From contig JAPOWQ010000029.1 in the NCBI GenBank assembly GCA_026707585.1, forward strand, positions 231,362 to 295,361: 64,000 bases of DNA, in the 5' to 3' direction. The notes beneath the pieces were generated by a model. The model searched no databases and was not told the DNA's origin. It worked only from the letters and a program-made list of their open reading frames with translations. The DNA is from Chloroflexota bacterium (lineage in GTDB: Bacteria; Chloroflexota; UBA11872). Shown here piece by piece: positions 6,425 through 52,465 of this stretch. Numbering within the stretch: the first letter of the stretch is position 1; every line of letters starts with the position of its first letter. Made by a program: the position numbers and the translations under genes.

Positions 6425-7279
6425 CTAGCAAGACACCCCTCGGCGCTCAGCCAACTCAACCAGGTTCCGCATCAGGCAATAATTCGTAATTGGCCCAATC
6501 CCCCCCGGCACCGGCGTTACCGCCCGAGCGCGCGAGGCCACGGCCTCAAAGTCCACGTCGCCCAGCACCGCGCCGTTCTGGTACGTCGTCCCCACATCCA
6601 CCACCACGGCGCCGGACCCCACATGCTCGGCTCCGATCAATCCTGGACTGCCGGTCGCCGCCACCAGGATCTCCGCCTGTGACGTCACTCCGGGCAGATC
6701 CACCGTTCGCGAGTGACACACCGTCGTCGTCGCATTCCGCGCCAGCAACATCGCCCACAACGGCTTGCCCACCACGTTGCTCCGCCCCACCACCACGACT
6801 CTTCGTCCCTCGATGGGCTCCTCGTAGTAGTCAAGCAACTCGATCACCGCCGCCGCCGTCGCCGGCCCCACAGCCGTGTGCCCCCCAAACAGCTCGCCAA
6901 CCGCCGCCGTCGTCAGCCGGTCCACGTCCTTGGCCGGATCGATTGCGGCCACGATCGCGGCCTCATCCACCTGCTCCGCCAGCGGAAACCCCAGCAGAAT
7001 CCCATGCACGCCGGCATCGGCATTCAATGCCAGCACGCGATCCACGACCTCGACGGTCGACGAATTGCCCGGCAACTCCTCCATGACTGCCTGCATACCC
7101 ACCCGCTTGCACCCGCGCTGCACCGCCCGCGCATATCCCCGCGCCGACGGATCGTCACCAACCAGGATCATGTGCAGCGCCAGCGGCCCGCTATCTTCCA
7201 GCTTGGCGACCCGCTCGCTCACAGCCGCCCGCAGCGCCCGCGCCGGCCCGCGACCCGACCAGACCTCGGCCGTGCTCAT
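6425..7279 (-). CDS. folD: FolD-family methylene-THF dehydrogenase, probably without cyclohydrolase activity
   Basis: A 284-residue protein with the FolD fold: KDVDRLT near 116, the NAD(P) loop VVVVGRSNVVGKP and PVPGGIGPIT near the C-terminus. FolD normally both dehydrogenates 5,10-methylene-THF and hydrolyses methenyl-THF. The usual catalytic lysine (Y-x3-K-x-K-x-C) is replaced: the segment reads GYARAVQRGC, putting Val53 at the lysine. The conserved glutamine of the VQLPLP motif is also gone; the segment reads ILLGFPL with Gly97. The aspartate of DVD is kept. Both changed residues are needed for cyclohydrolase chemistry in bifunctional enzymes, so I infer a dehydrogenase-only enzyme. Its ATG overlaps the stop of the FchA-type gene (ATGA), indicating translational coupling. 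Confidence 0.9.
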   Translation of the reverse strand: MSTAEVWSGRGPARALRAAVSERVAKLEDSGPLALHMILVGDDPSARGYARAVQRGCKRVGMQAVMEELPGNSSTVEVVDRVLALNADAGVHGILLGFPLAEQVDEAAIVAAIDPAKDVDRLTTAAVGELFGGHTAVGPATAAAVIELLDYYEEPIEGRRVVVVGRSNVVGKPLWAMLLARNATTTVCHSRTVDLPGVTSQAEILVAATGSPGLIGAEHVGSGAVVVDVGTTYQNGAVLGDVDFEAVASRARAVTPVPGGIGPITNYCLMRNLVELAERRGVSC

Positions 7280-7908
7280 GCCAAACCGTTCCCAAGTACG
7301 CCATCCACCACGCCGTCAGCCGCATCGCGCGCCGCCAACGCCTTGGCCAGTTCACCCGACAGTTCGTCACGCACCGCCGAATCTTCGATCGACCCAAGAT
7401 TCGCCTGCACGTTCATCTCGCAAATCCGAATCGCCGTCCGCGCCAGCGCCGCTCCCGCCCCGGCATCGCTGATCACGTTTGGATTCCCCTTCTCCGCCGT
7501 TTCAGAGGCCAACTCAATCATCTCCGCCGCCGCCGCGGCCACCCGCAACGGCACTCGGCTGGCCTGCTCACAAGCGCTCGCAATCGCCGCTTGCCGGCTT
7601 GATCGCTCATCGGCCGACCCGCGCGGCAGTCCGTACGCTGCCATCACCTGCCCATACGCTTCCGCATCCGCCTCCGCCAGCTCCAATGCCGAATCCCGAA
7701 TCGCATCGCAACGCTCGATCACCCGCTCCATGTCCGCCTGCACCGCCCGAAACTTGCGCCGCCCGGTCGTCAGCCGCGCCGTCATCGCCACCAGCGCCGC
7801 CCCCATCCCCAGCGCCACCGCCGCCCCGGCCCCACCTCCCGGCGTGGGCGCCGACGACGCCAACGCATCCAGAAACTCCCCTAGCGATCCGCCCTCGAAG
7901 TGGCTCAC
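7276..7908 (-). CDS. fchA: cyclodeaminase/cyclohydrolase family protein, probable methenyl-THF cyclohydrolase
   Basis: The 210-residue product belongs to the formiminotransferase-cyclodeaminase C-terminal family (PF04961): it opens with GGSLGEFLDALASSAPTPGGG, followed by alanine-rich helices, MTARLTTGR and EKGNPNVISDAG. The family includes formimino-THF cyclodeaminase and FchA, a methenyl-THF cyclohydrolase. I chose GTG 7908 because it lies 2 bases after the metF stop and places the GGS motif at the N-terminus; the longer open frame runs antiparallel in reading to metF and has no family similarity. There is no formiminotransferase domain or histidine-degradation gene nearby, while fhs, folD and metF are, which favours cyclohydrolase over cyclodeaminase. 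Confidence 0.88.
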   Translation of the reverse strand: MSHFEGGSLGEFLDALASSAPTPGGGAGAAVALGMGAALVAMTARLTTGRRKFRAVQADMERVIERCDAIRDSALELAEADAEAYGQVMAAYGLPRGSADERSSRQAAIASACEQASRVPLRVAAAAAEMIELASETAEKGNPNVISDAGAGAALARTAIRICEMNVQANLGSIEDSAVRDELSGELAKALAARDAADGVVDGVLGNGLA

Positions 7909-7910
7909 GA

Positions 7911-8915
7911 TCAGGCGGCGGCCGCGGGCTCGGGAACGCCGGGCGCCAGCGATGGCTCGGGCACCGGCCGCGGCAGCTTCAATCCCGCCGCCTTCACAAT
8001 CCGCGGCACCGCCCGCTCCCAGTCGATCGCCATGATGTGCACCCCGTGCACCCCCGGGATCTCCCGCACCTGCTCGATGATCTCCAGGCAAATCTTCACG
8101 CCCTCGGTCCGCGGCTTCTTCGCCGCCCGCATCCGCTCCACCACCGAGTCCGGCACTTCCATGCCCGCGATCTTGAACTTCATGAACTCCGCCATCCGCG
8201 CCGACTTCAGCGGACCCACCCCCGCGAATATGTGCACCCGCTCGTCCAGCCCCTCGTCCCGCACGTACGACATCCAGTCCGCGAACCGCTCCACGTTGAA
8301 GATCATCTGCGTCAGCGCAAACTCCTGCCCCGCCTCGGCCTTCTTGATCATCCGCAGCGGACGCCACCCGTACGGCGGCGCAAACGGATTCGCCGCCCCG
8401 CCGATGAAGTAGCCAAAGTCACCCTTGATTGGATCGCCCGCCGCTGTTTTGCCCTCGTCCCGCAGCCGCCGCAGCAGGCGCACCAGTTGCACCCCCTGCA
8501 GGTCGAATACCGGCTTCGCCATCGGATGATCGCCCAGCACCAGGGAGTCCCCGCTGATTGACATAAAGTTACGCACGCCAAACGCCTGCGCCGCGATCAC
8601 GTCCGACTGGATAGCCAGCCGGTTCCGGTCTCGGCACGACAGCTGCATGATCGGCTCCACCCCGCCCTGCGCGCACAGCAGCGCCGCCCCCCAGTTCGCC
8701 ATCTTCAGCGCCGCGCCCTGGTTATCCGTGCAACTGGCCGCATCCACGAACCCGCGGATAATCCCCACCTTCTTCCGCACGTCCGAAGCATCCGGCGCCC
8801 GCGGCGGCCCCAACTCGCACGTCACCGCAAACTCCCCCGCCGCCAGCACCGCCTGCAGGTGGCTATACGGCGGCGACGTGGCAACCGACACGCCACTGGC
8901 TTCGGCCGAAGTCAT
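7911..8915 (-). CDS. metF: methylenetetrahydrofolate reductase
   Basis: Reduces 5,10-methylene-THF to 5-methyl-THF with a flavin. The 334-residue product has the MTHFR barrel features: CELGPPRAPD with the catalytic glutamate near residue 32, the DAASCTDNQ segment, QLSCRDRNR, SISGDS, FFIGGAANPF-like FGYFIGGAANPF and FALTQMIFN. ATG 8915 is taken as start; 19 further codons upstream are open but lie in a structured repeat. A second domain of the eukaryotic type is absent. It is the first gene of the minus-strand one-carbon operon, 2 bases ahead of fchA. The proline/alanine-rich tail after residue 315 is probably unstructured. Confidence 0.93.
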   Translation of the reverse strand: MTSAEASGVSVATSPPYSHLQAVLAAGEFAVTCELGPPRAPDASDVRKKVGIIRGFVDAASCTDNQGAALKMANWGAALLCAQGGVEPIMQLSCRDRNRLAIQSDVIAAQAFGVRNFMSISGDSLVLGDHPMAKPVFDLQGVQLVRLLRRLRDEGKTAAGDPIKGDFGYFIGGAANPFAPPYGWRPLRMIKKAEAGQEFALTQMIFNVERFADWMSYVRDEGLDERVHIFAGVGPLKSARMAEFMKFKIAGMEVPDSVVERMRAAKKPRTEGVKICLEIIEQVREIPGVHGVHIMAIDWERAVPRIVKAAGLKLPRPVPEPSLAPGVPEPAAAA

Positions 8916-35370: not shown

Positions 35371-36603
35371 ATGGACAGCGTGCAGTTCGATGGAACCGGA
35401 ACAATCATTCTCAAGGGTGCGCGTGGGCCGCTTGAGGTTCGAGGCTCCGCATCCGCCTTCGGGGTCGTGGAAAGCCTCGGTGGGATTGGCATCGCCAGGC
35501 ACGACGAGGCCACGACGATAAGCCTGAGCGAAATGTCGACGGTCCAGGTTCCCGCTGGCGGACGCCTCGAAGTCGGCGATGTGAATGGGCCGCTGCGCCT
35601 GCTAGGAATCAAGCGCGACCTCCTGCTCGGCGCCGTCAACGGTCCGCTGCAGACGCGAGACGTGGCCGGTGATATTGACCTGACCGGACCGATCAACGGC
35701 CCGCTACGTGCCCAGGGAGCGCGAAAGCTCTCCGCCACCGGCGGCTCGCTGCTCCGCGGGGAAGTGAAGCTTGCCGACCTTGAGGAAGTGGACATCGCGC
35801 AGGTCAACGGCAATCTCGCCATCAGGCAAGTGTCGGGTGCTGTCCGGTTAGGCGAAGTGAATGGCCACACCCGCGCCGCCAACCTGACCGGGGGGTTCTG
35901 CGCCACGTCAGTCCAGGGAAATTTGGTGCTGCAGGGGAAACTCGGGGGTGACTCCGAGTGGGAGGCTCAGGTCGAAGGCCGGGTCAGGATCCGCCTCCAC
36001 CCCGAGTCCTCGGTCCGTGTGGACCTTGAGTCCAACAACCATCCCCCCTCGCTTGACCCTGAGTTTCAGATCGTCGAACGTTCCGACCGGCGCGTCGTCG
36101 CAACGCTGGGTTCAGGCCAGGGACACATGTGCATTCGCGCCGAGGGACCGGTCACCGCAAAGGTCAGCACGTCCTTTGACGCACACGAAGAGTTCGATGA
36201 CGCCTTTGCCAGGGCCGGCGTCGCCGTTGAGCGCGCAATGGCCGAGATGACCTCGGCTGTGGATGGCGCGTTCGACGAGGTTGGGGCTGAGCTGTCGGGA
36301 ATCGGTGCTGACCTCGATCTCGGCGATCTGGGTGAGCGCGTCTCGTCTCGGGTCAGACGCGAGGTCGATCGACACACGCGCCATGTCGCGCGGCGGATTC
36401 GTCGTGCCCGCCGCCAGAGTCATCGGCGCACCCGCCGGCATCCCGCTGCGGCTCGTCGCGCTCCAGCCCCGTCAGCCCAAATCACGCCAGACGAGCGCGA
36501 AGCCCGCGTGCGCGAAATCCTGCGCCGTGTCCAGGACGGATCGCTGGACGTGGACGAAGCCGACCGTCAATTGGGCGAACTGCCACTGCCGAAGCGGTCA
36601 TAG
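35371..36603 (+). CDS. DUF4097-like beta-helical protein with SHOCT-like tail
   Basis: A 410-residue protein. Residues 1 to about 260 form short repeats such as VGDVNGPLRLLG, GAVNGPLQTRDV and GPINGPLRAQG, a beta-helix pattern seen in DUF4097 proteins. The middle is alpha-helical, a basic stretch (RRIRRARRQSHRRTRR) follows, and the tail REILRRVQDGSLDVDEADRQLGE resembles the tail of the DUF2089 protein. No signal peptide. Similar pairs exist in Bacillus (YvlB-like) and are linked to envelope stress. The shared tail suggests both proteins meet the same partner. Confidence 0.75.
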   Translation: MDSVQFDGTGTIILKGARGPLEVRGSASAFGVVESLGGIGIARHDEATTISLSEMSTVQVPAGGRLEVGDVNGPLRLLGIKRDLLLGAVNGPLQTRDVAGDIDLTGPINGPLRAQGARKLSATGGSLLRGEVKLADLEEVDIAQVNGNLAIRQVSGAVRLGEVNGHTRAANLTGGFCATSVQGNLVLQGKLGGDSEWEAQVEGRVRIRLHPESSVRVDLESNNHPPSLDPEFQIVERSDRRVVATLGSGQGHMCIRAEGPVTAKVSTSFDAHEEFDDAFARAGVAVERAMAEMTSAVDGAFDEVGAELSGIGADLDLGDLGERVSSRVRREVDRHTRHVARRIRRARRQSHRRTRRHPAAARRAPAPSAQITPDEREARVREILRRVQDGSLDVDEADRQLGELPLPKRS

Positions 36604-37932: not shown

Positions 37933-38646
37933 GGCAGCAGCCCCACTCGCGCTCACCCGCGGGAGTCTCGCATGCGCGGCCGGCAGCGGAAACCTGCCCG
38001 GCAGCCGCCGTATCCCCCGCCGACAGTGCCAATGCAGTTGCGGGCGCCCGCGTATCTGCCCCTGGCTACCACTGTCTACCGGGCGACCCGCGTTCCGTGC
38101 GGCCACCTGGGATCTTCGAATCGCGGCCCTCTCTGATTTTGTTACCCCTGCTCCCAGCGCTTCTAAGTCGCCATCTTCGTGGACTGGATGCTGTCATGAG
38201 CCAACATCGGGTTGGGCGAACGAAGGCGTTTGATCCTTCGGCGGTCTACGGCTTCGTTCCTGGCCCTGGTGGCGTCCTTCTCGGTGACCCAGAACGACCG
38301 GTCGTATCGGGCTAGCTGCTCTTTCCGCCAAGACCGGCGGAGGCGGCTAGCGGGACGACGAGGGCGCGGGAAGGTGGTTGGATTCGGTTGGGTGCTGCTG
38401 GGTCACAGTGATGCCTCCGCCGCCCAGTGGCCGCGGGTCAGGGTGGCGGGACGGTGGGCCGGTCTCGGGATAGGGACAGGGTGGGCCTCAGCGCGGTTGG
38501 CCGGCGGTTGGTGGCTTTTTGTATTACGGGCGGGGGGCGGGTGGGGTGTTGCGGATGCGATCCGGGCGGGACATTCGGCTTCACTACGATGGCAGGGACC
38601 TCCTCGCGCATGAGCCCCTGCATCTGTCGGCGGGTTGCGAGTAGTG
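37933..38646. other. gene-free stretch
   Basis: No gene or strong repeat is supported in these 714 bases between the divergent enolase-superfamily gene and the first broken solute-binding protein gene. The second half (from about 38350) is strongly G-rich on the plus strand and frames there look like low-complexity shadows. Promoters for both flanking genes should lie here. Confidence 0.5.
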
Positions 38647-40270
38647 GTGAGCGAACCACGGATGGTGGGTGCGGGACGGTTGCCGGGTTTGGGGCGGCGG
38701 GTTTCGCGGCGGCGGGTGCTTGGGTTGGCTGGAGTGCTTGGCCTGGGAACCGCCGGAGTGGCGGCGTTGGCGGGGTGTGAGGAGCTGCGGGCCACTCAAC
38801 AGGTTGCAACGCCGGCGGCGAACGAGGTGACGGCGCCGCCGGCTGAGCGAGTCGTCGAAGAGTCGGCCGGTCAAGTCGTCACCAGAAGAGCGAAGGTCGA
38901 AGTTGAGCAACGTGAGACAGGGCACTTTTGCGAGTTGGTGCCTGCTGCCGTGCGGCCAGAGACAAGACCGTTGTCAAGTTGGGTTGACGTCCGATTCGCG
39001 ACCAACCACACAGCGGGCCCACGCCGTGCGGCGATGCGGTGGGGGTTGGCAGAGTTCGCCAAGCATTACCCGGAAATCATCGTCACGTTGGTACCGGCCG
39101 CCAGCCTGACCGGCAGTGCTGCCGCCCAGTTTTTTGAGGATTCGGCGCCGAACTTGACGACGCTCTCGCAGGCGGACTTCCATCGGTTACACGAAGCGGG
39201 CGCGTTCACGGAAATCACCAATGAGTTGGCCAAGCGGGACGACTTCCAGCCGGAGGACTATTACTTCATCCCGGACGCGTACACGTTCAACCACATGGAC
39301 CACTCGTTCCCACCGCCGTCTGAAATGTTGGGTGCCCAGTTCGGTATGCCGTTCCAGATCGACATCAGCGGCTTTATTGGGCAACACTTCTTTGGCCGAG
39401 GCAGCGGGCGTGACCCTACCGGACAGCGAAGGGGGATGGACCTGGGAGAGTTGGACCGAGTGGGACGCCATGATGACGGACCCCGAAATCGGGGCATACG
39501 GCACCCTGGCGCCAAACGACTTCGCGTCTCAGTACATGCCGCAGATGTATTCAAATGGCGTGGCCAAGCCGTTTAACGACCGGCTTACACGAACGATGTT
39601 CGATCTGCCGGAGGCCGGCGAGGCCTGGGAGTACATGACCGGAAAGATCTTCGAACATAAGGCGTCGCCCCCTGCCGGTCTGATCAGGGAGCTTAGCGGC
39701 GAGTACAGCGACCCGTTTACCGCGGGCAAAATCGGAATCTGGCCGTCGGATCGCGCGTCCTCGACCGGATTCGCGACTCCGCAGATCAAGAATCGGTTCG
39801 CCTGGACGCTGCTACCGGAAGTGATCGCGGCCAGAGGCGGTCCGCCGGGACATACCTGGCGCGAACACGCCAACCTCGCGACGATCCAGGCCGAACGAGA
39901 GGGAGTGATCGAGGGGTCTACATCTCTCGCGGTGTACCTGGCTGGTGAGGAGTTTCAGTGCCGTGTCGGCATTGACCGTGGCCACATGTCGGTGCAGAGG
40001 GCTGAGCTTGGCTCGCCTGCGTCCGTGGCTCCGCCGCCGGAAGGAATGAAGTGGCTGAAGGTCTACGCCGACCGTCCCACCAACCGGGGTCTCTTTCCGT
40101 TCAGAACCTGGAGGGACTGGTATGAAAAGCACCGGGAGCTCGCCCGGATGGCTTGGACGGGGCAGCAGACGCCGGCGAAGTCGCTGGAGGCGTGCCAAGC
40201 GTGGGGGTTTGAGCACTTTTCGACGTATGAGGGTCCGCGCCCGTTTGTGGCTGAGCCGGTGTATCCGTAG
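38647..40270 (+). pseudogene. extracellular solute-binding protein, paralog 1, frameshifted
   Basis: The first 245 residues (Tat-type start GLGRRVSRRRVLGL, lipobox LAGC, then VDVRFATNHTAGPR) read in one frame up to FQIDISGFIG near 39378. The match to the intact paralog (47724-49238) then continues in the +1 frame with NTSLAEAAGVTLPDSEGGW and runs to GPRPFVAEPVYP at 40270. An extra base in the GGG at 39379-39381 explains the shift. The gene would bind an oligosaccharide or similar solute for an ABC importer (family 1). It is either a pseudogene or carries a sequencing error. GTG 38647 parallels the start of paralog 2. Confidence 0.88.
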
Positions 40271-40288
40271 GTGGGAGTGGGAAGAGCG

Positions 40289-41815
40289 GTGAGCGAGGGA
40301 CGGTTGCCGGGGTTGGGGCGGCGGGTTTCGCGGCGGGGGGTGGTGGGGTTGGTGGGGCGGTTGGGATTGGGGGTTGGTGGAGCGGCGCTAGCCGGTCTGC
40401 GGCTAGCGCCCCCCAAGAAGGTCAACGCGGCGGATGACGGATCGGCAGCAGACGGCGCCCATGGGGTTAGTGCCGACGAACGTCCAATCTCGCCGGAGAG
40501 TGTTGAAGTCCGGTATTGGACGGACCACCTTTCGGGACCGCGTGGCGCCGCGTTGCAGTGGGGCCTCGATAGATTCGCGCAGTTGAACCCGCGAATCAAT
40601 CTCAGGCTCGAGACTGCCACCGCGGGCGCTCCCACGCCGCCATCGCGACTGAACGCGGTGCCCCATGCGAACGTGGCATTGGTCTCGCAGACTGGCTTTG
40701 TGCGTCATCGCGAGATTGGGCACTTCATGCGAATCAATGACCTGCTGCTCAAGCTCGGAAGCGAACGGTTGCTTCAGGAGCCCGTCGCAGCGCAGTACTT
40801 CGTTCCCGACGCGTTCACCGACGACGAACTCGATCACTCGTTCCCGCCGTCGCCGGCGCCGGAAGGCCTGGCGTATCCGGATCAGTTTGGGATGCCCTTC
40901 GAGCTGTCAATCAGCGGGTTCCTGGCCAACACTTCGCTGGCCGAGGACGCCGGGGTGCGTCTGCCGGACAGCGAGAACTCGTGGACCTGGGACGACTGGT
41001 CCGAATGGGACGCGATGATGACAGATCCGGAGACCGGGACGTTTGGCACATGGGCGCGGGATGACTACGCGGGTCAGTACATGCCGCAGATGTACACAAA
41101 CGGACTGAAGAAGCCGTTCGACGACGGCTTGACCAAGACGATGTACGACCAGCCGGAAGCCCTGGAGGCGTGGACTTACCTGATCGACAAGGTCATTGAG
41201 CACCAGACTGCGCCCACGGTCGGTCAGACCAAATCGCTAGCCGGCGAATACGGCGATCCGTTTTCCGCCGGCACGATCGGCATCTGGCCGACCGACCAGG
41301 TCTCGATCACCGGCCACTACAGTCCCCAGATCAGAGACCGGTTCGAGTGGACACTGCTGCCGGAAGTCGTCGCGCCTGGCGGCGGTCCACCGGGGCATTC
41401 GTGGTCAATGCGGGCAAATCTGGTGTTAGCGAACGCGCACCGGGCTCATGAACCCGAAGCTGCGGTGGAGTTCGTTCAGTTTCTCGCGGGGCCGGAATAC
41501 CAGGGCCGAGTTGGAATCGATCGCGGCCACGTGCCGGTGCACAGGGCAGTCTTTGACGCGCCGGAGTCGCTCGCGCGGCCACCGTACGGTATGAAGTGGC
41601 TGCAGGTGTATGCGGAACGGCCGGACAACCGGAGTCCGTAGTCGTTTGAGGGCTGGGAGCGGTGGTGGCGGCATCACAAGGGGCTGGCCTGGAAGGGATG
41701 GTTTGGGACGCAGTCGGCCGAGGAGTCGCTGGCAGCGTGCCAGGCGTGGGGCGAGAGGTTCTTCGCGTTCTACGACGGGCCGCGGCCGTATGTGCGTGAG
41801 CCGGTGTATGCGTAG
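40289..41815 (+). pseudogene. extracellular solute-binding protein, paralog 2, interrupted by in-frame TAG
   Basis: Encodes 450 residues similar to paralogs 1 and 3 (SVEVRYWTDHLSGPR, DQFGMPFELSISGFLANTS, ENSWTWDDWSEWD, MPQMYTNGLKKPFDD), then TAG at 41639-41641. The same frame continues for 57 codons and ends GPRPYVREPVYA, the family's usual C-terminus. The twin-arginine start (RRVSRRGVVGL) is kept, but the lipobox cysteine is gone: ALAGL replaces ALAGC. Loss of both the anchor and the C-terminus indicates decay. It follows paralog 1 after 18 bases, so a tandem duplication is likely. Confidence 0.88.
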
Positions 41816-43352: not shown

Positions 43353-44999
43353 CTAGTTGACGATGAAGCCGGGGTAGCCGTTGTCGGCCACTTCGTTGCA
43401 TCTTTTGCGGTAGGGGCCGACGCCGCCGGGGTAGGGCATGAAGACGCGGGGTTTGCCGGGGATGTTGGCGCCGAGGTACCAGGAGTTGGCGTGGACGTAG
43501 AGGGTGGTGTTGGCGACTTCGGTGACGTGGGCGACCCATCGTTCCTCGGCCTGGGGATTGGCTTCGGCGGTCTCGACATCCCGCTCGCGCATCCAGGTGA
43601 TGAAGTCGGCGATGAAGTCGATGTGCTGCTCGATGCTGACGGGCATATTGCTGAGGACGGAGGGGCTGCCGGGGCCGGTGATCATGAACATGTTGGGGAA
43701 GCCGGCGACCTGGAGGCCGAGGTAGGTCTTTGGTCCTTCCGACCATTTCCGGCGTAGCGCCAGGCCTTTGCGGCCGCGGATGTCGATCTTGAAGAAGGTG
43801 CCAGTCATGGCGTCGAAGCCGGTGGCGAAGACGATGACGTCGAGCCGAATGTCCTGCTCGGTGGTGCGGATGCCGGTGGGCGTGATTTGCCGGATGGGGG
43901 TTTGGCGCAGGTCGACGAGGTGGACGTTGTCGCGGTTGTAGGTGGCGTAGTAGCCGGTGTCTAGCAGGCCGCGCTTGGCGCCAAAGGGGTGGTCGTGGGG
44001 GAGGAGCTTTTGGCAGGTTTCGGGGTCCTTGACGATCTGACGGATCTTGTTGCGGATGAAGTCGGCGGCGGTGTCGTTGGCGGCCCGGTTAGTCATGATG
44101 TCGGCGAATGAGCCGCCGCTGAATTCGTAGCCGCCCTTTTCCCACTGCTCCTCGAAGATCCGATTGCGCTCGGCTTCGGTGACGGCCAGGGCGGATTGCT
44201 CGATGGGTGCGCGCCCGCCGCCGCCCTGGCTCCAGCGGGCTTTCTCGAGGATCTCCTCGTAGTTGGGCTTGACCTCTTCCTCGATGAACCGGCGGTCGGC
44301 GGCGCGGTGGCGGGCGGGGACGGTGAATTGGGGCGTGCGCTGGAAGACGGTGAGGCTGCTGGCCTGTTTGGCGATGACGGGGATGGACTGGACGCCGCTG
44401 GAGCCGGTGCCGATGACGCCGACGCGCTTGCCGGTGAAGTCCACGGGGTCGTGGGGCCAGGCGCCGGTGTGGTACCAGTCGCCCTGGAAGTCGTCCAAGC
44501 CCTCGATCGGCGGGACGTTGCTGGTGGAGATGCAGCCGATGGCGGTGATGAGGTACCGGGCCGTGACGCGGTCGCCCCGGTCGGTGGTGATCTCCCAGCG
44601 ATTGGCATCTTCGTGGAATGTCGCGGCGGTGACGCGGGTGTCGAATTGGATGTTGCGGCGAAGGTCAAAGCGGTCGGCGACGTGCTCGAGGTAGGAGAGG
44701 ATTTCGGGCTGCTCGGGGTACTTGCCGCTCCACGTCCAGTCCTGGAGCAGTTCCTTGGAGAACGAGTAGCAGTAGATGTAGCTCTCGGAGTCGCAGCGGG
44801 CGCCGGGGTAGCGGTTCCAGTACCAGGTGCCGCCGACGCCGCTGCCGGTCTCGTAGACTTGGACGGCGAGGCCCATGACGTCGCGCAGGCGGTGGAGCAT
44901 GCCCAGGCCGGAGAAGCCGGCGCCGATGACGACGGCGTCGAAGTCAGGGCCGTTCCCTAGGCCAGCCACTTGATTGCCTCGGCGGTTGCACGCATCCAA
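43353..44999 (-). CDS. Baeyer-Villiger-type flavin monooxygenase
   Basis: A 548-residue FAD- and NADPH-binding protein. The first Rossmann motif is VVIGAGFSGLG near residue 24, the second VGVIGTGSSGVQ near residue 185. The Baeyer-Villiger signature F-x-G-x3-H-x3-W-P is present as FQGDWYHTGAWP, with GGTWYWNRYPGARCD upstream, as in cyclohexanone or phenylacetone monooxygenases. It inserts oxygen next to a ketone; the substrate is unknown. Its start lies close to the cluster of tiny lipoprotein genes on the same strand. GTG ten codons downstream is an alternative start. Confidence 0.92.
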   Translation of the reverse strand: MDACNRRGNQVAGLGNGPDFDAVVIGAGFSGLGMLHRLRDVMGLAVQVYETGSGVGGTWYWNRYPGARCDSESYIYCYSFSKELLQDWTWSGKYPEQPEILSYLEHVADRFDLRRNIQFDTRVTAATFHEDANRWEITTDRGDRVTARYLITAIGCISTSNVPPIEGLDDFQGDWYHTGAWPHDPVDFTGKRVGVIGTGSSGVQSIPVIAKQASSLTVFQRTPQFTVPARHRAADRRFIEEEVKPNYEEILEKARWSQGGGGRAPIEQSALAVTEAERNRIFEEQWEKGGYEFSGGSFADIMTNRAANDTAADFIRNKIRQIVKDPETCQKLLPHDHPFGAKRGLLDTGYYATYNRDNVHLVDLRQTPIRQITPTGIRTTEQDIRLDVIVFATGFDAMTGTFFKIDIRGRKGLALRRKWSEGPKTYLGLQVAGFPNMFMITGPGSPSVLSNMPVSIEQHIDFIADFITWMRERDVETAEANPQAEERWVAHVTEVANTTLYVHANSWYLGANIPGKPRVFMPYPGGVGPYRKRCNEVADNGYPGFIVN

Positions 45000-45097: not shown

Positions 45098-45310
45098 CTA
45101 GCGGAAGGTCTGCATCTTGTAGTTGCCGCTGGCGTCCTTTTCGGCACCGGGGAAGTTGTACTTGTCGCGGGTTAGCTTCTCTTCCTCGCCGCAAGCGGCC
45201 AGGGCGGCAAGGACACCACCGGACGCGGCGAGGAGGAGGCCCAGACGGCGGCGGGAGAGCTGGCCGGTGGGGCGGCGGGTGGATTCATGGCGGGGAGCCA
45301 GGTCGTTCAT
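45098..45310 (-). CDS. tiny Tat-type lipoprotein, family member A
   Basis: A 70-residue protein: a basic start with LSRRRLGLLLAAS, a hydrophobic segment and a lipobox LAAC. After the cysteine only about 31 residues remain, rich in charged residues, with KYNFPGAEKDASGNYK. That core matches six other small proteins nearby (Y-x-FPG-x2-KD-x2-G-x-Y). The product should be a lipid-anchored, largely extended peptide on the outer face of the membrane. No known family was recognised. Confidence 0.72.
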   Translation of the reverse strand: MNDLAPRHESTRRPTGQLSRRRLGLLLAASGGVLAALAACGEEEKLTRDKYNFPGAEKDASGNYKMQTFR

Positions 45311-45438
45311 TTCGTGTCTCTCGTGCGGGTGGGCGTCGGTGCATCCGGCGGCGGGTTCGCTCCCTAATTTACAAGCCCCAGACCGGGGCGGGGTTGGCGT
45401 TGAGGCCGCCGGCTTCAGTTCAGCGCCGGGCGAATGCG

Positions 45439-45723
45439 CTATTGGGCGTTGCGCATCTGGTAGTTGCCGGTGCTGTCCTTCCTGGCGCCGGGGAAATCGT
45501 AGTTATCGCGGGTGAGTTTCTGCTCGCCGCAGGCGGCCAGGGTGGCAAGCGCACCGGCGGAGACGGCGAGCAGGGCAACGAGCCGGCGGCGGGGGAGTTG
45601 GGCGGCAGGGTGGGGACTGGCGTGAGGATTGGACTCGTTGCGGAGGTCAAGTACTTTCGTGCCCCGACTCCCGTGCGTCGTGGCGGCGACGCGGCCTACG
45701 GCTGGTGCGATTTTGTCCGCCAA
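45439..45723 (-). CDS. tiny Tat-type lipoprotein, family member B
   Basis: A frame of 94 residues; start TTG 45723 is uncertain and the true start may lie closer to LPRRRLVALL. The signal segment ends in LAAC and the mature part is about 30 residues with KLTRDNYDFPGARKDSTGNY, most similar to member A (shared KLTRD and NYxFPG). The two are probably a recent duplication. No enzymatic motif. Confidence 0.65.
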   Translation of the reverse strand: MADKIAPAVGRVAATTHGSRGTKVLDLRNESNPHASPHPAAQLPRRRLVALLAVSAGALATLAACGEQKLTRDNYDFPGARKDSTGNYQMRNAQ

Positions 45724-45744
45724 TCCGCGAGCTGGTGGTGGCTT

Positions 45745-45969
45745 CTAGACGCGGCTGCCGCCGCCGAAGCCTTTGCCGTCGCGGTTCTTGCCCGGGAACG
45801 TATAGCCGCCGCCCGGCTTGTACCTGTCATCGTCACCACATCCCGCCAGGGCCGCGAGGGCCCCGGCCCCGATCACGAGCAGGAGGCCGAGCGAACGCCG
45901 GGATAGGGTTCCAGCCGACAGCGGGTTGGCGCGGGTGGCGACGGCTTGTGGCGTCTTCGCGGTTGGCAT
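45745..45969 (-). CDS. tiny Tat-type lipoprotein, family member C
   Basis: A 74-residue protein with LSRRSLGLLLVIG, lipobox LAGC and a mature part of about 31 residues: an acidic start, then YKPGGGYTFPGKNRDGKG and a glycine-rich end. It differs from A and B by the KPGGG before the tyrosine, as in D and F. AAGGG lies upstream of ATG 45969. Confidence 0.7.
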   Translation of the reverse strand: MPTAKTPQAVATRANPLSAGTLSRRSLGLLLVIGAGALAALAGCGDDDRYKPGGGYTFPGKNRDGKGFGGGSRV

Positions 45970-46008
45970 TTTGGCGAATCCCTTCGGTTCAGCGGCGCAC
46001 GAACGCCG

Positions 46009-46233
46009 CTAGATGTTGCGCATGCGGTAGTTGCCGGTTTCGTCTTTCTTGGCGCCGGGGAACTTGTAGCCGCCGCCCGGCTTGAGGGTTTCATCCTCGC
46101 CGCATCCGGCCAGCACTGTGAGGGCGGCAGCCGATGCGGCAAGCAGGAGAACAAGGCGGCGGCGCGACAATTTGTCAGCGAGACGCCGGTCGGCATGAAG
46201 GGCCGACGGGCGTCGTCGCGCAGGCGCCTTCAT
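46009..46233 (-). CDS. tiny Tat-type lipoprotein, family member D
   Basis: A 74-residue protein from ATG 46233, which has AGGAG about 9 bases upstream; a longer frame upstream overlaps the Gfo/Idh gene and is not supported. KLSRRRLVLLLAAS precedes the lipobox LAGC. The mature part carries LKPGGGYKFPGAKKDETG, the best example of the family motif, and ends YRMRNI, similar to member B's YQMRNA. Confidence 0.75.
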   Translation of the reverse strand: MKAPARRRPSALHADRRLADKLSRRRLVLLLAASAAALTVLAGCGEDETLKPGGGYKFPGAKKDETGNYRMRNI

Positions 46234-46286
46234 TGTTTCACTCCTGTTCGTGCGCGGGGATGCGGCTGGCGGTCGGTGCATTGATG

Positions 46287-47333
46287 TCAGACCCAGCCAT
46301 GTTCCTGCGAAATGACCTGGCCGGCGGTCTGGACGCTGTACTGAGTTCCGCTGGCGAGCGTGACCTGCTGGCCGCTGATGGATGAGCGTTCGGCGGCGAA
46401 AAGAATCTCCATGATGTGGCGGCCCCACTGGCCGGAGGTGGGCGGTTCGAGGTCTTCCTCGATGGAGCGAGCGAAGGCGCGCCATTCCGCGGTCATGCCG
46501 GCGGGTGGGTCCTCGAAGGGGACGCGAGTCCATTCATTGCCCCGGCCGATGGCGACGAAGCGGTCGCCCGAGCCGCTGAAGCGGACGCCACCGTTGGCGC
46601 AGATGATCTCGGACTGGTAGTTGGGAGCGCCATCGCGGTAGCCGATGGCGATGGCGATACCAGGGACGCTGTTCTTGTAGTCGACGAATGCGACGCCGTA
46701 GTCGTCGCCGGCCTGGTAGTGGCTCTTGGTGCCGATGCGGGCCTTGACGCGGGCGGCCTGGGAGCCGACGAGCCAGGTGAGGCGGTCGACCATGTGGACG
46801 CCGTTGGTCATCCAGTAGCCGCCGCCGTGGAAGCGGCTGCGGTACTGGGGCCGACGGTTGGCAAAGCCCCAGTTCTTGACCGAGTAGCAGACGGCGGTGA
46901 TGAGGGGGCCAAGCTCGCCGGAGTCGAGGATCTGCTTGGCCTTCATGTTGGGGCCAAGGAAGTGCTGGGTGAGACCGATCATGAGCTTGACGTTGTTGCG
47001 CCGGGCGGCCTCGATCATGTCGTCGCACTGCTGGAGGGAGAGGGCCATGGGCTTCTCGACTAGGACGTGTTTGCCGGCGTTGAGGGCGTCGACGCTGAGG
47101 CGGTGGTGGAGCTGATGGCCGAGGGTGACGGCGACGGCTTCGACCTCCTCGTCCTTCAGCAACTCGGTGTGATTGGGGTAGGCGCGGGGGACCTCGTAGC
47201 GGTCGCAGAAGGCCTGACGCGGTGCCTTGAGAAGGTCGGCGGCGGCGACGATTTCGACGTTGGGCAGGGTCTCGATGGCGTCGCCGTGAGACCTGGAAAT
47301 GCCGCCGAGTCCGACGATTCCGACGCGGAGCAT
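46287..47333 (-). CDS. Gfo/Idh/MocA-family oxidoreductase
   Basis: A 348-residue NAD(P)-dependent oxidoreductase: Rossmann start MLRVGIVGLGGISRSHGDAI, HVLVEKPMALS with the catalytic lysine near residue 95, then the C-terminal sheet domain with YWMTNGVHMVDRLTW carrying the usual active-site aspartate and histidine. Members act on sugars, inositol or related polyols. It lies among sugar-uptake and glycosidase-like genes, consistent with catabolism of an imported sugar derivative. It is followed by lipoprotein D and preceded by lipoprotein E on the same strand. Confidence 0.9.
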   Translation of the reverse strand: MLRVGIVGLGGISRSHGDAIETLPNVEIVAAADLLKAPRQAFCDRYEVPRAYPNHTELLKDEEVEAVAVTLGHQLHHRLSVDALNAGKHVLVEKPMALSLQQCDDMIEAARRNNVKLMIGLTQHFLGPNMKAKQILDSGELGPLITAVCYSVKNWGFANRRPQYRSRFHGGGYWMTNGVHMVDRLTWLVGSQAARVKARIGTKSHYQAGDDYGVAFVDYKNSVPGIAIAIGYRDGAPNYQSEIICANGGVRFSGSGDRFVAIGRGNEWTRVPFEDPPAGMTAEWRAFARSIEEDLEPPTSGQWGRHIMEILFAAERSSISGQQVTLASGTQYSVQTAGQVISQEHGWV

Positions 47334-47421
47334 GCCTATGACTCCCTGCAGCGGGCTCTTTGGGTTGGAAGGATAACGGCCAACGGCGCATTGTTCGCCG
47401 CTACCGGATGCGGACTGATGT

Positions 47422-47631
47422 TTATCCGCCGCTCATCTTCGATTTGTAGGCCTCCTGGAGTTTCGCGCGATCCTCGTCCGTCAGGCGGTAGTTGTGGCCT
47501 TCGCGCGTCTGGGTGAATGGGTAGGGGGTAGTGTCGGGCTGGCCGCAGGCGGCCACCAGAACTGCAAGAGCCGCGCCAGAAGCCAGGCAGAAGAAGCGCC
47601 GCCCAATCGGCCGGGCTTTCGCAACCCCCAT
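47422..47631 (-). CDS. tiny lipoprotein, divergent family member E
   Basis: A 69-residue protein from ATG 47631 with a basic start (RPIGRRFFCLAS), a hydrophobic segment and lipobox VAAC. The mature part of about 41 residues lacks the FPG core but has TREGHNYRLTDEDRAKL and a lysine-rich helix. Membership in the family is based on size, signal and position between the Gfo/Idh and solute-binding protein genes, so it is less certain than for the others. Confidence 0.62.
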   Translation of the reverse strand: MGVAKARPIGRRFFCLASGAALAVLVAACGQPDTTPYPFTQTREGHNYRLTDEDRAKLQEAYKSKMSGG

Positions 47632-47723
47632 AGGATCGCTGGCTTGGATGGTCGCCTCCCCGCCCGCGCCGGGTGGCCGGCGCGGGCGGGGACGAATTGC
47701 GCCACGCGATCGATGCCTCGGGC

Positions 47724-49238
47724 CTATGGGTAGACCGGCGAGCTGACGAAGGGCTTGGGCCCGGTGTAGTTCCTCAGGAGTCGTGCACTTTGATCCTGCA
47801 CGTCCTGCAACGCCTCGGTGACCGTGGATTCGCCGACGAAGGCCTTCGCGGTCAGGGGCCGAATCTGCTGGTTCCACGCGGGCCACTCATTGAAGGTGTA
47901 GAGGTGGCGCGTATCGGGCCGATCGGCATAGACCTTGAGCCACTGCATGCCTTCGGGTGGCGGGGCGATCGACTCGGCCTTCCCGATCGACTTCCGGTGC
48001 GCGGGCATATGGCCGCGGTCGATGCCCACCCGATCAGAGACTTCCTCGCCCGCCATAAACATCACGAACAGTGTGGAGGCCTCTTCGGTGCCGTTCTTGC
48101 GCGCGGTGGCGGTAACCATGTTGGCCTGGTCGTTCCAGCCGTGGCCGGGGGTCATTCCGTCGCGCACGACAACTTCCGGCAGCAGAGTCCAGCGGAAGCG
48201 GTCCTTAATGCGGGGAATCGCATACCCGGTGGAATAGACCCGGCCAGACGGCCAGAGACCAATCTTGCCGGCGGCGAACGGGTTGCCAAACTCCCCGCCA
48301 AGTTCCTTGGTCAGTTCTGCCGGCGGCGAGGTCTCGTGGAGGAAAACCTTGTCCACCAGGTATTGCAGCGCCTCGTGGACCTCGGGCAGGTCGTACATGG
48401 CCTTGGTCAGGGCGTCGTTGAAGGGCTTCTTCAGCCCGTTGGAGTACATCTGCGGCATGTACTGGAATTCGTAGTCGTTGCGAGCCCAGGTCCCGAACGT
48501 GTCCTCGTCGGGATCCGTCATTTGGCTGTCCATCTGGGTCCAGTCGTCCCAGGTCCAGCTGTTCTCGCTCGTTGGCAGCTCGACGCCGTTCTCCTCGGCG
48601 AGCGAGATGTTGCCCACAAAGCCGCTGATGGCGACCTGGAAGGGCATGCCGAACTGTGGCCCGTTCATGACCTGCGGCGGCGGGAACGAATGGTCGACCT
48701 TGTTGTCGGTGTAGTCGTCGGGCACGAAGTAGAAGTCCTCGCGGACTAGGCCGTGCTTGTCCAGCAGTTCAGTGACTTCGAGCCAATTGTCACCTTCCTG
48801 GAAATGCAGAAACAGCGATTGTGACGAGAGCGTGGTGTCGGGGGCAGTTCCGGCTGCGAACTGAACGCCCAGGATGTCGCTGAGGCGGCCGGCCGGCTCG
48901 AACCGGACGTGAATGTTGGGCTGGACTTGCGCGAAGCGCTCAAGCGCCCACTGGTTGGCCTTCGCTCGCGGACCGGACGTGTGGTTGGACACGTAGCGGA
49001 TGAAGGAGACTTCCTGCTGCGGGGCCTGGACCTCGACGACTTTCTCAACTTCCCTGGTGACGATCTTCTCGATCTCAACCGCGACTTCCTTGGTTACGAC
49101 TTTCTCTACCGGCACTTCCTTCGTGACGATGCGTTCGACTTCGACAATCTGCGTCTCCCCGCAGGCGGCCAGCGCAGCCGCTCCCGCGGCTCCAGCAGCA
49201 GTCGCCAGCAACCGACGACGCGAAATCAGTGGCCTCAT
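47724..49238 (-). CDS. extracellular solute-binding protein (family 1), intact paralog 3
   Basis: A 504-residue lipoprotein: Tat-type start LISRRRLLATAAG, lipobox LAAC, then a stalk of valine/glutamate repeats (EKVVTKEVAVEIEKIV) and the binding domain with SNHTSGPRAKANQWALERF, PQFGMPFQVAISGFVGN, ENSWTWDDW and MPQMYSNGLKKPFND. It ends GPKPFVSSPVYP. It should capture a carbohydrate for an ABC importer; no permease or ATPase gene is in the window. GGGAGGG upstream supports ATG 49238. It is the only intact member of a three-gene family here. Confidence 0.92.
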   Translation of the reverse strand: MRPLISRRRLLATAAGAAGAAALAACGETQIVEVERIVTKEVPVEKVVTKEVAVEIEKIVTREVEKVVEVQAPQQEVSFIRYVSNHTSGPRAKANQWALERFAQVQPNIHVRFEPAGRLSDILGVQFAAGTAPDTTLSSQSLFLHFQEGDNWLEVTELLDKHGLVREDFYFVPDDYTDNKVDHSFPPPQVMNGPQFGMPFQVAISGFVGNISLAEENGVELPTSENSWTWDDWTQMDSQMTDPDEDTFGTWARNDYEFQYMPQMYSNGLKKPFNDALTKAMYDLPEVHEALQYLVDKVFLHETSPPAELTKELGGEFGNPFAAGKIGLWPSGRVYSTGYAIPRIKDRFRWTLLPEVVVRDGMTPGHGWNDQANMVTATARKNGTEEASTLFVMFMAGEEVSDRVGIDRGHMPAHRKSIGKAESIAPPPEGMQWLKVYADRPDTRHLYTFNEWPAWNQQIRPLTAKAFVGESTVTEALQDVQDQSARLLRNYTGPKPFVSSPVYP

Positions 49239-49559
49239 GGCACCCTCCCTGGTTCGGAGCACGGTCATTAGTGGCCGAATTGCCCGATGGCTAACTATTA
49301 ATACTCTAAGGGTCTGCCCTGTCAAGCGAGGGACCAATGAACTCGAGGCACGAGGTTCCCGGCGAGGGAAGACAGATCACGTGTCGCGCGGGGGGACGCG
49401 AGCACGGTGACGCTCGGAACCAGCGGTTGCCGGCGCAAGGACTACGTGTGGGTTGCCGATCCAGTCGTCGGGCACGCAGAAGCGAATATCCTGGCCGAGA
49501 GTCGCGGATCAGGCCGACGTGCGGTCTCAAGACTCAGCGGCTGCCGTGGTGACGTCGGT

Positions 49560-49760
49560 CTAGATCGGGTTGCCCTGGGTGTACTGGCCCTTCTCGTCCT
49601 GCTTGCCGCCGGGGAACTGATAGCCGCCGCCCGGCTTGTATTTGTCCTCGTCTTCGCGACAGCAGGCGAGCAGAAGGCTGGACGCACCGACTAGCGCCGC
49701 GAGGAATCTTCGTCGCCTGGTGATTCCGCCTGCGGGCGGCCGACGCGTACCTGCCGGCAT
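49560..49760 (-). CDS. tiny Tat-type lipoprotein, family member F
   Basis: A 66-residue protein from ATG 49760, preferred because AGGAGG lies 6 bases upstream. ITRRRRFLAALVG precedes the lipobox LLAC, directly followed by a second cysteine. The mature part has DKYKPGGGYQFPGGKQDEKG, close to members C and D. It is the last minus-strand member; the next copy is on the other strand. Confidence 0.72.
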   Translation of the reverse strand: MPAGTRRPPAGGITRRRRFLAALVGASSLLLACCREDEDKYKPGGGYQFPGGKQDEKGQYTQGNPI

Positions 49761-50120
49761 GCCTGCCTCCTGCCGTCGCGCAGGGATGCGCACCGGCGCG
49801 CCGCGTCATCCCACTCCGAAGTATTCGGCCCCTGACCATATACTATATCCGGCTCGATGGTCGGCACTGCGCGATTGCCGCGACTGTTGCCAGGGGGCTC
49901 GCAGGGCGTGGTGAAGTCCAGGGCAGGCCGTAGCCCACTCCCTCAGCGAACACCGCGCTCGACGTCAACGATTGCGGCGCCGTAGCTGCGCCGCATCGAG
50001 CGGCGTACGCTGTACGACGTACCGCCCCCGGTCGGGACACCGCCGGGAGATATGGATTGGCCCGATGTGCATGCACCGAACGCCGCCCTCATTGCCACGC
50101 ATTCGCACAGGAGGGGAGCG
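49761..50120. other. divergent promoter region between lipoprotein genes F and G
   Basis: A 360-base gap between divergently read family members. An AT-rich patch, CCATATACTATATCC near 49834, could be part of a promoter. No gene is supported here. Confidence 0.45.
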
Positions 50121-50330
50121 ATGACGGGACGTGACCGGTGCCAGAAATCCGGCCTTCACGCCAGCCAGCTCTCGCGTCGCCGGCTGGTGGCGCTGCTGGC
50201 CGTCTCCGCCGGCGCCGTTGGCACGCTGGCCGCCTGCGGTGAGCCTGAGAAGCGCAAGCCGGGCGGGTACGACTTCCCCGGCGCGGAGAAGGACGAAAAG
50301 GGCCGTTTCAAGTCGTCGCAGACGTTTTAG
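50121..50330 (+). CDS. tiny Tat-type lipoprotein, family member G
   Basis: A 69-residue protein from ATG 50121, with AGGAGGGG about 5 bases upstream. QLSRRRLVALLAVSAG is nearly identical to member B; the lipobox is LAAC and the mature part of 31 residues carries RKPGGYDFPGAEKDEKGRF. It precedes the GH42-like gene by 32 bases on the same strand, so it is probably co-transcribed with a carbohydrate-active operon. Confidence 0.75.
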   Translation: MTGRDRCQKSGLHASQLSRRRLVALLAVSAGAVGTLAACGEPEKRKPGGYDFPGAEKDEKGRFKSSQTF

Positions 50331-50362: not shown

Positions 50363-52465
50363 ATGGCTGCCGACGAGGGTTTTGGGATTCCCGGGGTTCC
50401 GTTTCCGGTGGGGGTGGAGTACTACCGGGCGCCGGCGCCGAAGCCGGAGGTCTGGGACGAGGACCTGGCGCGGATCCGGTCGGGCGGGTTTCGGATCGTG
50501 CGCAGTTTCACAATGTGGAACTGGATGGAGCCGCGGCCGGGGCAGTACGAACTGGACGAGTTCGACCGGCTGTTCGACCTGGCCGAGAAGCACGACCTGT
50601 ACATATGGCTGGACATGGCGCTGGCGACGCATGGGGCGGGCCCGGAGTGGATGACGCGAGACTTTCCGGACATGCGGGTGGTGAACCAGCAGGGTCGAGC
50701 AGCCACGCCGGTGGCCAGCGCGGCGATGCCGCAGGGGTCGCAGATTCACTGTTACGACCATCCGCTGTGGCGGCGGTTCGGCGGGGCGCTGATCGAGCAC
50801 GTGGTGACGCGCTACCGGGACCGGCCGAGCCTGCTGATCTGGGGGTTGTGGGACGGGATTGCGATCTCGTCGGCGTTCAGCCGGCAGACGGACGGGCTGC
50901 CGTGCTACTGCCCGCACACGCTGGCTCGGTACGAGGCGTGGCTGCGCGAGCGGTTCACGCTGGACGAGCTGAACGAGCGGCTGCTGCGTCGCTTCCGGCG
51001 CTGGGAGGACGTTGAGCCGCCGCGTTCGAAGGCGAGCCCGGTGGAGATGCTGCTGTACCGGCAGTTCCACTATGAGAACCTGGCCGGCCACCTGGAATGG
51101 ATGATCGGCGAGACGAAGCGGCTGGACCCGGTGCACGAAACGCGGACGCACGGCGCCTGGTATCCGCGGCCCTGGGACGAGCGGTGCGCGGCGGTGGCGG
51201 ATAGCTGGGGCATGTCGATGCCGTCGAGCAGCCTGCTGACGGTGGAGGACCCGTACCAGGTCGCGGACCGGGCGTTCAGCTTCGACTGGTCGCGCAGCGC
51301 GGGGAAACACGGGCGCTGGTGGAACGAGGAGATCTACGCGGGCATGTCGCCGGGGGGCGTGACCTGGAAGAAGCAGGCCGACCCGCGGGAAGTCACCACG
51401 CTGCTGTGGATGACGCTGGCGTGCGGGGCGGCGGGGGCGATGTTCTGGCAGTACCGACCGGAGTACATGAGCTTCGAGTCGCCGGGCTACAACCTGGCGG
51501 CATTGGACGGGACGCCGAATGCGCGGTTCGAGGCGGCGGCGCGAGCGATCGAGCAGATCGACGGGCTGAGCGAGCACCTGCCGCTGGAGTGCCCGCGGGC
51601 CGAGGTGGGCGTGGTTTACCACCCGGAGTCGCAGGAGCTGTTCGGGTACAACGACGAGGACGATCGCTTCCTGGCGGATATGCGGGGAACGTACCGGGCG
51701 CTGTGGACGGAGGGATTCACCCCGGATGTGGTGTCGCCGCGGATGGATTGGTCGGGGTACCGGCAGCTGTTTCTGCCGAACGTGGCGCTGATGGACGAGG
51801 CGGCGCTGCAGAGCGTGCGGCGGACGCTGCGGGATTCGGCGGGGGCTCGGCTGGTGGCCGAGGGCAGCTTTGGGATGTATTCGGCTGACGGGCAGTCGAG
51901 CTATGGGCCGCCGGACGGGTTGGCCGAGGAGTTGGGCGTGCGGGTGGCGGACTTCTCGGCGGTGACTGCGTACGACATCGAGCAGGGGCGGAACATGCTG
52001 GAGACGTCGTATGGGCCGGTGGCGATTACTTCGCCGTGCGGGTACGCGGTGCTGGAGCCGCGGGGGGAGATGCAGGGAATCGCATCAATCGAGGGGCAGA
52101 CGGTAGGAGTGCAGTCCGCGGACGGGCGGTTTACGTGGTACGGGTTGACGCTGTCGGCGGGGTTCGGGGATGTGGGGCAGCCGGACCTGGTGCGGGGGTT
52201 GACACGAGAAGCGGCGATAGCACCGCCGGTGGCGGTGGATGGCGACCGCGTAGTGCCGATCGTGCGGCGGTCGCGGCAGGGTGGGCTGTTGCTGTTCGTG
52301 TTCAACCTGGAGGGTGGAACGGCGAGTAGCCGGTTGCGGCCGCGTGAGCGGATTCTTGGGGCGCGGGACTTGTTGGCTGGCCGAGACCTCGATATTCGGG
52401 ACAACGGGTTTGACCTAGAGATTCCGCAGTGGGACGTGGCGGTGGTTCATTGCGCGGAGGGATGA
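50363..52465 (+). CDS. GH42-like beta-galactosidase-family protein
   Basis: A 700-residue protein of the glycoside hydrolase 42 / beta-galactosidase type: GVEYYRAPAPKPEVWDEDLARI near the start, FTMWNWMEPRPGQYE, and a later EEIYAGMSPGGVTW, then AGAMFWQYR and a trimerisation-like domain. The likely nucleophile is in RWWNEEIYAG. The usual acid/base glutamate (a W-x2-[DN]NE motif) is not seen; the position reads IWGLWDG. The protein may be inactive, use another residue, or have altered activity. No signal peptide, so it would act in the cytoplasm on an imported sugar. Confidence 0.8.
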   Translation: MAADEGFGIPGVPFPVGVEYYRAPAPKPEVWDEDLARIRSGGFRIVRSFTMWNWMEPRPGQYELDEFDRLFDLAEKHDLYIWLDMALATHGAGPEWMTRDFPDMRVVNQQGRAATPVASAAMPQGSQIHCYDHPLWRRFGGALIEHVVTRYRDRPSLLIWGLWDGIAISSAFSRQTDGLPCYCPHTLARYEAWLRERFTLDELNERLLRRFRRWEDVEPPRSKASPVEMLLYRQFHYENLAGHLEWMIGETKRLDPVHETRTHGAWYPRPWDERCAAVADSWGMSMPSSSLLTVEDPYQVADRAFSFDWSRSAGKHGRWWNEEIYAGMSPGGVTWKKQADPREVTTLLWMTLACGAAGAMFWQYRPEYMSFESPGYNLAALDGTPNARFEAAARAIEQIDGLSEHLPLECPRAEVGVVYHPESQELFGYNDEDDRFLADMRGTYRALWTEGFTPDVVSPRMDWSGYRQLFLPNVALMDEAALQSVRRTLRDSAGARLVAEGSFGMYSADGQSSYGPPDGLAEELGVRVADFSAVTAYDIEQGRNMLETSYGPVAITSPCGYAVLEPRGEMQGIASIEGQTVGVQSADGRFTWYGLTLSAGFGDVGQPDLVRGLTREAAIAPPVAVDGDRVVPIVRRSRQGGLLLFVFNLEGGTASSRLRPRERILGARDLLAGRDLDIRDNGFDLEIPQWDVAVVHCAEG

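Follow-up and report, generated by a model that had tools for sequence, protein, structure and literature searches.

A genus-restricted family of tiny predicted lipoproteins, enriched beside permease-less solute-binding-protein genes in Chloroflexota

LptM (YifL) of the Enterobacteriaceae is an accessory lipoprotein of the lipopolysaccharide translocon, whose short mature part assists a larger membrane machine by binding to it (PMC10567701), and it offers a model for how a tiny lipoprotein can act on such a machine. Here we describe seven small open reading frames (ORFs), A to G, that encode predicted lipoproteins in a 64,000-nucleotide stretch of a Chloroflexota bacterium (GCA_026707585.1, contig JAPOWQ010000029.1, positions 231,362 to 295,361; hereafter the window). 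Unlike LptM, these proteins carry a YxFPG element and have relatives in tandem arrays, and they occur in another phylum with other neighbours; identity with LptM was rejected, as E scored 16 bits against NF047847 (cut-off 27.7), in the signal peptide region only. The CUT1-type solute-binding-protein (SBP) lipoproteins (SBP_bac_1) share their neighbourhood, an RR-type signal and a CGE/CGD start with them, but are ligand binders of about 500 residues, whereas the tiny proteins contain no domain. Small lineage-specific lipoproteins such as TrbK have the same combination of signal, lipobox and short tail; matches to them are, however, sub-threshold and confined to the signal region, whereas the conserved part of the window family is the tail, in paralogous arrays that are often SBP-linked. 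A study of sponge Chloroflexi reported many ATP-binding cassette (ABC) transporters and does not contain the word “lipoprotein” (Bayer et al. 2018, PMC6306507), and no paper on tiny lipoproteins beside SBPs in Chloroflexi was found in the literature.

All seven ORFs are present where a first, sequence-only reading of the window had placed them. Six lie on the minus strand: A (45098..45310, mature part CGEEEKLTRDKYNFPGAEKDASGNYKMQTFR), B (45439..45723, CGEQKLTRDNYDFPGARKDSTGNYQMRNAQ), C (45745..45969, CGDDDRYKPGGGYTFPGKNRDGKGFGGGSRV), D (46009..46233, CGEDETLKPGGGYKFPGAKKDETGNYRMRNI), E (47422..47631, CGQPDTTPYPFTQTREGHNYRLTDEDRAKLQEAYKSKMSGG) and F (49560..49760, (C)CREDEDKYKPGGGYQFPGGKQDEKGQYTQGNPI); G is on the plus strand (50121..50330, CGEPEKRKPGGYDFPGAEKDEKGRFKSSQTF). 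They encode 66–94 residues, of which 30–41 are counted from the lipobox Cys. A lipoprotein signal, composed of a basic n-region, a hydrophobic stretch and the lipobox Cys, is recognizable by sequence in all seven and in their orthologs, and the Cys is predicted to be lipidated and to anchor the protein to the membrane. SRRRL or PRRRL motifs are found in the signals of A, B, D and G; no match to the twin-arginine translocation (TAT) model was listed for the tiny proteins, and that of the window SBP was only sub-cut-off.

The element Y-x-F-P-G is common to all except E, and an alignment of the six mature parts (A–D, F and G) shows C, Y, F-P-G, D and G to be invariant. The longer core KPGGGYxFPG, initially given as the approximate core of all six, is in full form restricted to C, D and F, G having the variant KPGGYDFPG, and A and B the variant LTRDxYxFPG. 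The tail of E, YPFTQTREGHNYRLTDEDRAKLQ, lacks FPG and aligns with a second type, FxFPRVRDGHQYYISEEERAKLQ, which tblastn with E independently recovers at two further loci (L051 and L053); E is thus a divergent relative of the other six. What had been called a local family of seven is a true cluster, and only one of a genus-wide set with further subfamilies. The tails are too short for catalysis, as had been supposed. Metal binding had also been suggested; a Cys/His metal binder is not supported, since alignments of the window copies and their orthologs contain no conserved Cys or His in the mature parts apart from the lipobox Cys.

The preferred start of F is ATG 49760 and that of G is ATG 50121, each after the Shine-Dalgarno sequence AGGAGG, and that of D is ATG 46233, after AGGAG; these are the same three genes for which ribosome sites had been noted. 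A and C have weaker sites, and the GGGAGG of E lies too far upstream. B has no in-frame ATG, the window reading AGT or ACG where its relatives have a start ATG (45640–45723). Its start is therefore uncertain; it could be TTG 45723 or ACG 45660, or B may be poorly translated in this strain. In F, a double Cys (LLAC-CRED) stands where relatives read LLAS-CGED, and the lipidated residue may be shifted by one with respect to them. Promoter and terminator scans gave results no better than chance.

The reading frame of the mature parts is kept in many species (orthologs in about 10), with the proportion of non-synonymous differences (pN) well under that of synonymous ones (pS). The ratio of non-synonymous to synonymous rates (dN/dS), calculated with orthologs from up to 11 loci, is 0.24 in the mature part and 0.30 in the signal for A (11 loci), 0.06 and 0.52 for B (nine sequences), and 0.16 and 0.46 for G (11 sequences); two further tiny lipoproteins of the same genome, E1 and E2, yield 0.16 and 0.55, and 0.20 and 0.24, respectively. 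Variable sites at codon positions 1/2/3 number 6/7/18 in A, 2/0/10 in B and 4/6/17 in G. The mature tails are under strong purifying selection, their dN/dS lying far from the value near 1 that would have refuted the first reading, while the signal peptides drift more. Each paralog preserves its own C-terminus across species (GNYQMRNAQ, GRFKSSQTF and GQYTQGNPI are examples), and the B tails are 95% identical between species. Frame conservation, variation mostly at the third codon position and pN below pS show that the ORFs are not chance, so the proposals that they are real genes, that the mature part is conserved among differing signals and that changes are mostly synonymous all hold. In gene B, two relatives (L096 and L109) have near-identical signal peptides and differ in their first mature residues (AACGEEKL vs AGCGGEKKL), which suggests an exchange between paralogs at the signal/mature border.

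A full-length profile matched many large lipoproteins through the signal peptide only, and mature-only profiles were therefore used to define the extent of the family. Within the genus, the type of E (EER type) was found in 13 of 13 genomes and the FPG type in 11 of 13; 28 genomes from elsewhere in the class contained neither. FPG-core homologs occur across the genus, so the other outcome that would have refuted the first reading did not arise. Among 301 sampled genomes of the phylum, the EER type is limited to the genus, save for one marginal 21-residue match (G280). The named relatives that carry the family are Chloroflexota metagenome-assembled genomes (MAGs), several of which we take, from their isolate names, to derive from marine sponges. 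Further subfamilies stand beside other genes. Five tandem lipoproteins of the type CGGDFEYKTSGDR...IQEQYKAK (QEQYxAK type) are found at L052 (contig C28 of the window genome, G000; 7128–8563), between two SBP genes and a sulfatase, and this tandem type is kept in 10 genomes of the genus. There are also TPFAFP copies, a DGYYKFARTR...ERERLRQEYK type (10 of 13 genomes) and single ones. The window genome contains at least 22 tiny lipoproteins of several subfamilies, plus a few more likely ones: A–G, E1, E2, one EER copy and two TPFAFP copies on C22, the five tandem copies, one on C20, three on C36 and one on C63. Two distant species have tiny genes with very short tails, CGEQEVEHGKFKLRSGASW and CGDEPEHGKFHLRSGRSWGS, immediately upstream of SBP genes that are orthologs of each other (L216, 4216–4350; L198, 2335–2472).

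Judged from sequence, these proteins form a genuine, genus-restricted superfamily with a common plan. An RR-type signal and the lipobox Cys are followed by a brief spacer, either acidic or flexible, then by an aromatic-x-aromatic-(P/K) element, which in the window is YxFPG, and finally by a short C-terminal tail. No Pfam or NCBIfam family reached its gathering score or cut-off, the weak sub-threshold matches falling mostly over the signal, and a profile search of the PDB matched zero chains. As had been suspected, then, no accepted family covers them, and the family appears to be real, conserved and undescribed.

Tiny lipoproteins are enriched beside SBP genes that lack permease neighbours, which bears out a clustering that had been put forward for checking. 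PF01547 genes were listed in three genomes (G000, G002 and G013) and most of their surroundings were read. A tiny lipoprotein was defined by a signal and lipobox, a mature part of 15–80 residues, only minor overlap with larger genes, an early acidic residue and no more than two Cys, and was considered linked within 3 kb; an SBP was called permease-less if no permease-like gene lay within three genes of it. Such linkage was found for 12 of 31 permease-less SBPs (13 by script, one at window position 36552 being removed by eye as a chance ORF) and for none of nine SBPs with permeases (Fisher p 0.037). Some of the 31 loci had been fetched for their tiny genes, and the 23 PF01547 genes of G000 therefore provide a cleaner test. 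A tiny cluster lies near six of them, a few surroundings being unread and scored as empty, whereas the density measured over 731 kb of sequence distant from SBPs predicts 0.94 (P 4e-4, or 0.005 with the background count also treated as uncertain). For the background, 40 stretches of 20 kb were sampled: 20 in G000, most of them on the same contig as the window, and 20 at regular intervals along G002. The linkage is retained between distant species (L143/L199, L198/L216 and L052/L144), and the tiny-linked label, when mapped on a tree of the SBPs, falls into clusters, requiring 5 changes vs 10.6 when shuffled (0 of 500 shuffles as low), with near-copies contributing to this value. The same scan of four SBP loci in a sister genus (G013) found zero tiny lipoproteins. 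The tiny genes are not exclusively SBP-linked, and encoding together with permease genes, as looked for in an ABC importer, was found neither in the window, which has no BPD_transp_1 (PF00528) match, nor at any of the nine SBPs with permeases.

The window SBP (47724..49238, minus strand; PF01547, 2e-11) is an SBP_bac_1 lipoprotein with a VEKIVTxEV stalk. Downstream, on the same strand and with gaps of about 40–130 nt, follow E, a Gfo/Idh/MocA oxidoreductase without signal peptide (46287..47333; PF01408, 7e-29; 92–95% identical and syntenic in relatives), D, C, B, A and, as the last of the run, a flavin monooxygenase resembling Baeyer-Villiger monooxygenases (BVMO; 43353..44969; PF00743, 1.1e-15; syntenic); upstream of the SBP comes F. 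A gap of 32 nt on the plus strand separates G from a GH42-like gene (50363..52465; PF02449, 4.5e-35), which directly follows G on the same strand in most relatives, and a BNR-repeat protein and an M20 peptidase come next. Most relatives retain G, Gfo/Idh, B, A, BVMO, GH42, BNR and M20 without the SBP, C, E and F, and in them G adjoins Gfo/Idh. Orthologs of the window SBP (at least 84% identity) occur, besides the window genome, only in G005 and G007, and C, E and F, which are present in precisely these three, therefore travel with the SBP; orthologs of C and F were found in G005 and G007 only. D is found in the same three genomes and, at about 60% identity, in G011.

Many SBPs, at the window and elsewhere (L143, L184, L190 and others), have a long VEKVVTQEV-type repeat stalk of very different lengths after the lipidated Cys. 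SBP-like fragments adjoin each other at window positions 38635–41641, and a TAG inside the match of one of them indicates that they are probably decaying SBP copies. Permease pairs are found in G000 at C31 (17161–18704) and C71 (9406–10941), with no PF01547 match listed on either contig; both are candidates for sharing among SBPs without their own permease.

The reading that we tentatively favour is that these proteins are lipid-anchored peptides with an accessory part in the capture or uptake of carbohydrates. Each would be exported, lipidated and held at the outer face of the membrane, where its otherwise flexible tail would fold on an extracytoplasmic partner, either an SBP that comes without dedicated permease genes or the shared permease on which such an SBP must rely. 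We infer export, lipidation, partner and accessory function from gene position and protein anatomy, and presume contact with an SBP from the linkage. An accessory role is the most plausible one because the tails, whose export is predicted, are conserved, specific to each paralog and linked to permease-less SBPs. AlphaFold2 models of D and E are of low confidence (mean pLDDT 65 and 67), with a short, low-confidence hairpin in the D tail (61–63, 69–71) and a C-terminal helix in E (52–67; block pLDDT 87 and 76). Tails may be hairpin-like in A–D, F and G and helical in E and its relatives. The E helix is the only confident tail fold in these models, and the FPG region by itself yields none, which is what one would expect if the peptides take shape on a partner.

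Several points weigh against this reading. The functional evidence is entirely positional. In the majority of the genus, moreover, A, B and G persist next to Gfo/Idh, GH42 and BVMO although the window SBP is absent. These three therefore cannot depend on that SBP and must have another partner or role, the partner perhaps being a shared permease or another SBP. No tiny lipoprotein lies near 19 of the 31 permease-less SBPs, and E1 and E2 adjoin aldo-keto reductase (AKR), Gfo/Idh and short-chain dehydrogenase/reductase (SDR) genes with no adjacent SBP. “Permease-less” was judged from neighbours only, and a permease pair lies about 4–5 kb from the SBP of L191; the contrast with permease-linked SBPs is weak, with counts edited by eye and loci partly chosen for their tiny genes. 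A wider proposal, which we consider rather doubtful, is a lineage toolkit in which the tiny lipoproteins, numbering more than 20 per genome and each distinguished by a conserved tail, would serve as adaptors coupling many permease-less SBPs to a few shared sugar permeases. New substrates would then be added by gaining a cassette of SBP and tiny lipoproteins, such as F-SBP-E between G and Gfo/Idh.

Among the rival explanations, it is conceivable, if on the unlikely side, that these are surface lipoproteins of a general kind, which alter the envelope or aid life in the sponge, their position beside catabolic operons reflecting co-regulation and not contact with uptake proteins. The restriction of the family to one genus of Chloroflexota MAGs, its numerous paralogs and the fact that A, B, G and E1/E2 belong to gene runs that include no SBP would fit this; however, the tiny genes cluster by SBP genes and are scarce elsewhere, and the C-terminus that each paralog keeps across species points to specific partners. 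It is improbable that they act as TAT co-export anchors, the tail binding a folded, signal-less neighbour enzyme (GH42, the BNR protein or M20), carrying it through TAT and anchoring it to the membrane. Although the tiny proteins have RR-type signals, the adjacent enzymes lack signal peptides by eye and G precedes GH42 so closely in most relatives, the most constant neighbours (Gfo/Idh and BVMO) need cytosolic NAD(P)H and the SBP has a signal peptide already; since SBPs here often bear TAT-like signals, an RR-type signal is no special hint. Quite improbable too are precursors of peptide signals, whose 8–10 C-terminal residues would be cleaved and sensed: a signal followed by a short tail with a paralog-specific end would suit them, but conservation covers the whole mature part including YxFPG, the tails are near-constant between species, unlike diversifying pheromones, and no receptor gene was recognized nearby. 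Finally, non-functional chance ORFs or attenuation leader peptides, which the shortness of the ORFs and the missing ATG of B might suggest, are very hard to credit and already contradicted by the mature dN/dS (0.06–0.24), the third-position variation, and the signal and lipobox in every copy with orthologs in about 10 species.

The interest of the family rests on its copy number, the conservation of its tails and the link to permease-less SBPs. Most gene callers and family libraries miss proteins of this size, and yet the tails rank with the best-conserved portions of several carbohydrate loci in these sponge-associated bacteria. If they are accessories of uptake, they would provide a simple answer to how many SBPs without permease genes are used, and a marker for locating such systems elsewhere.

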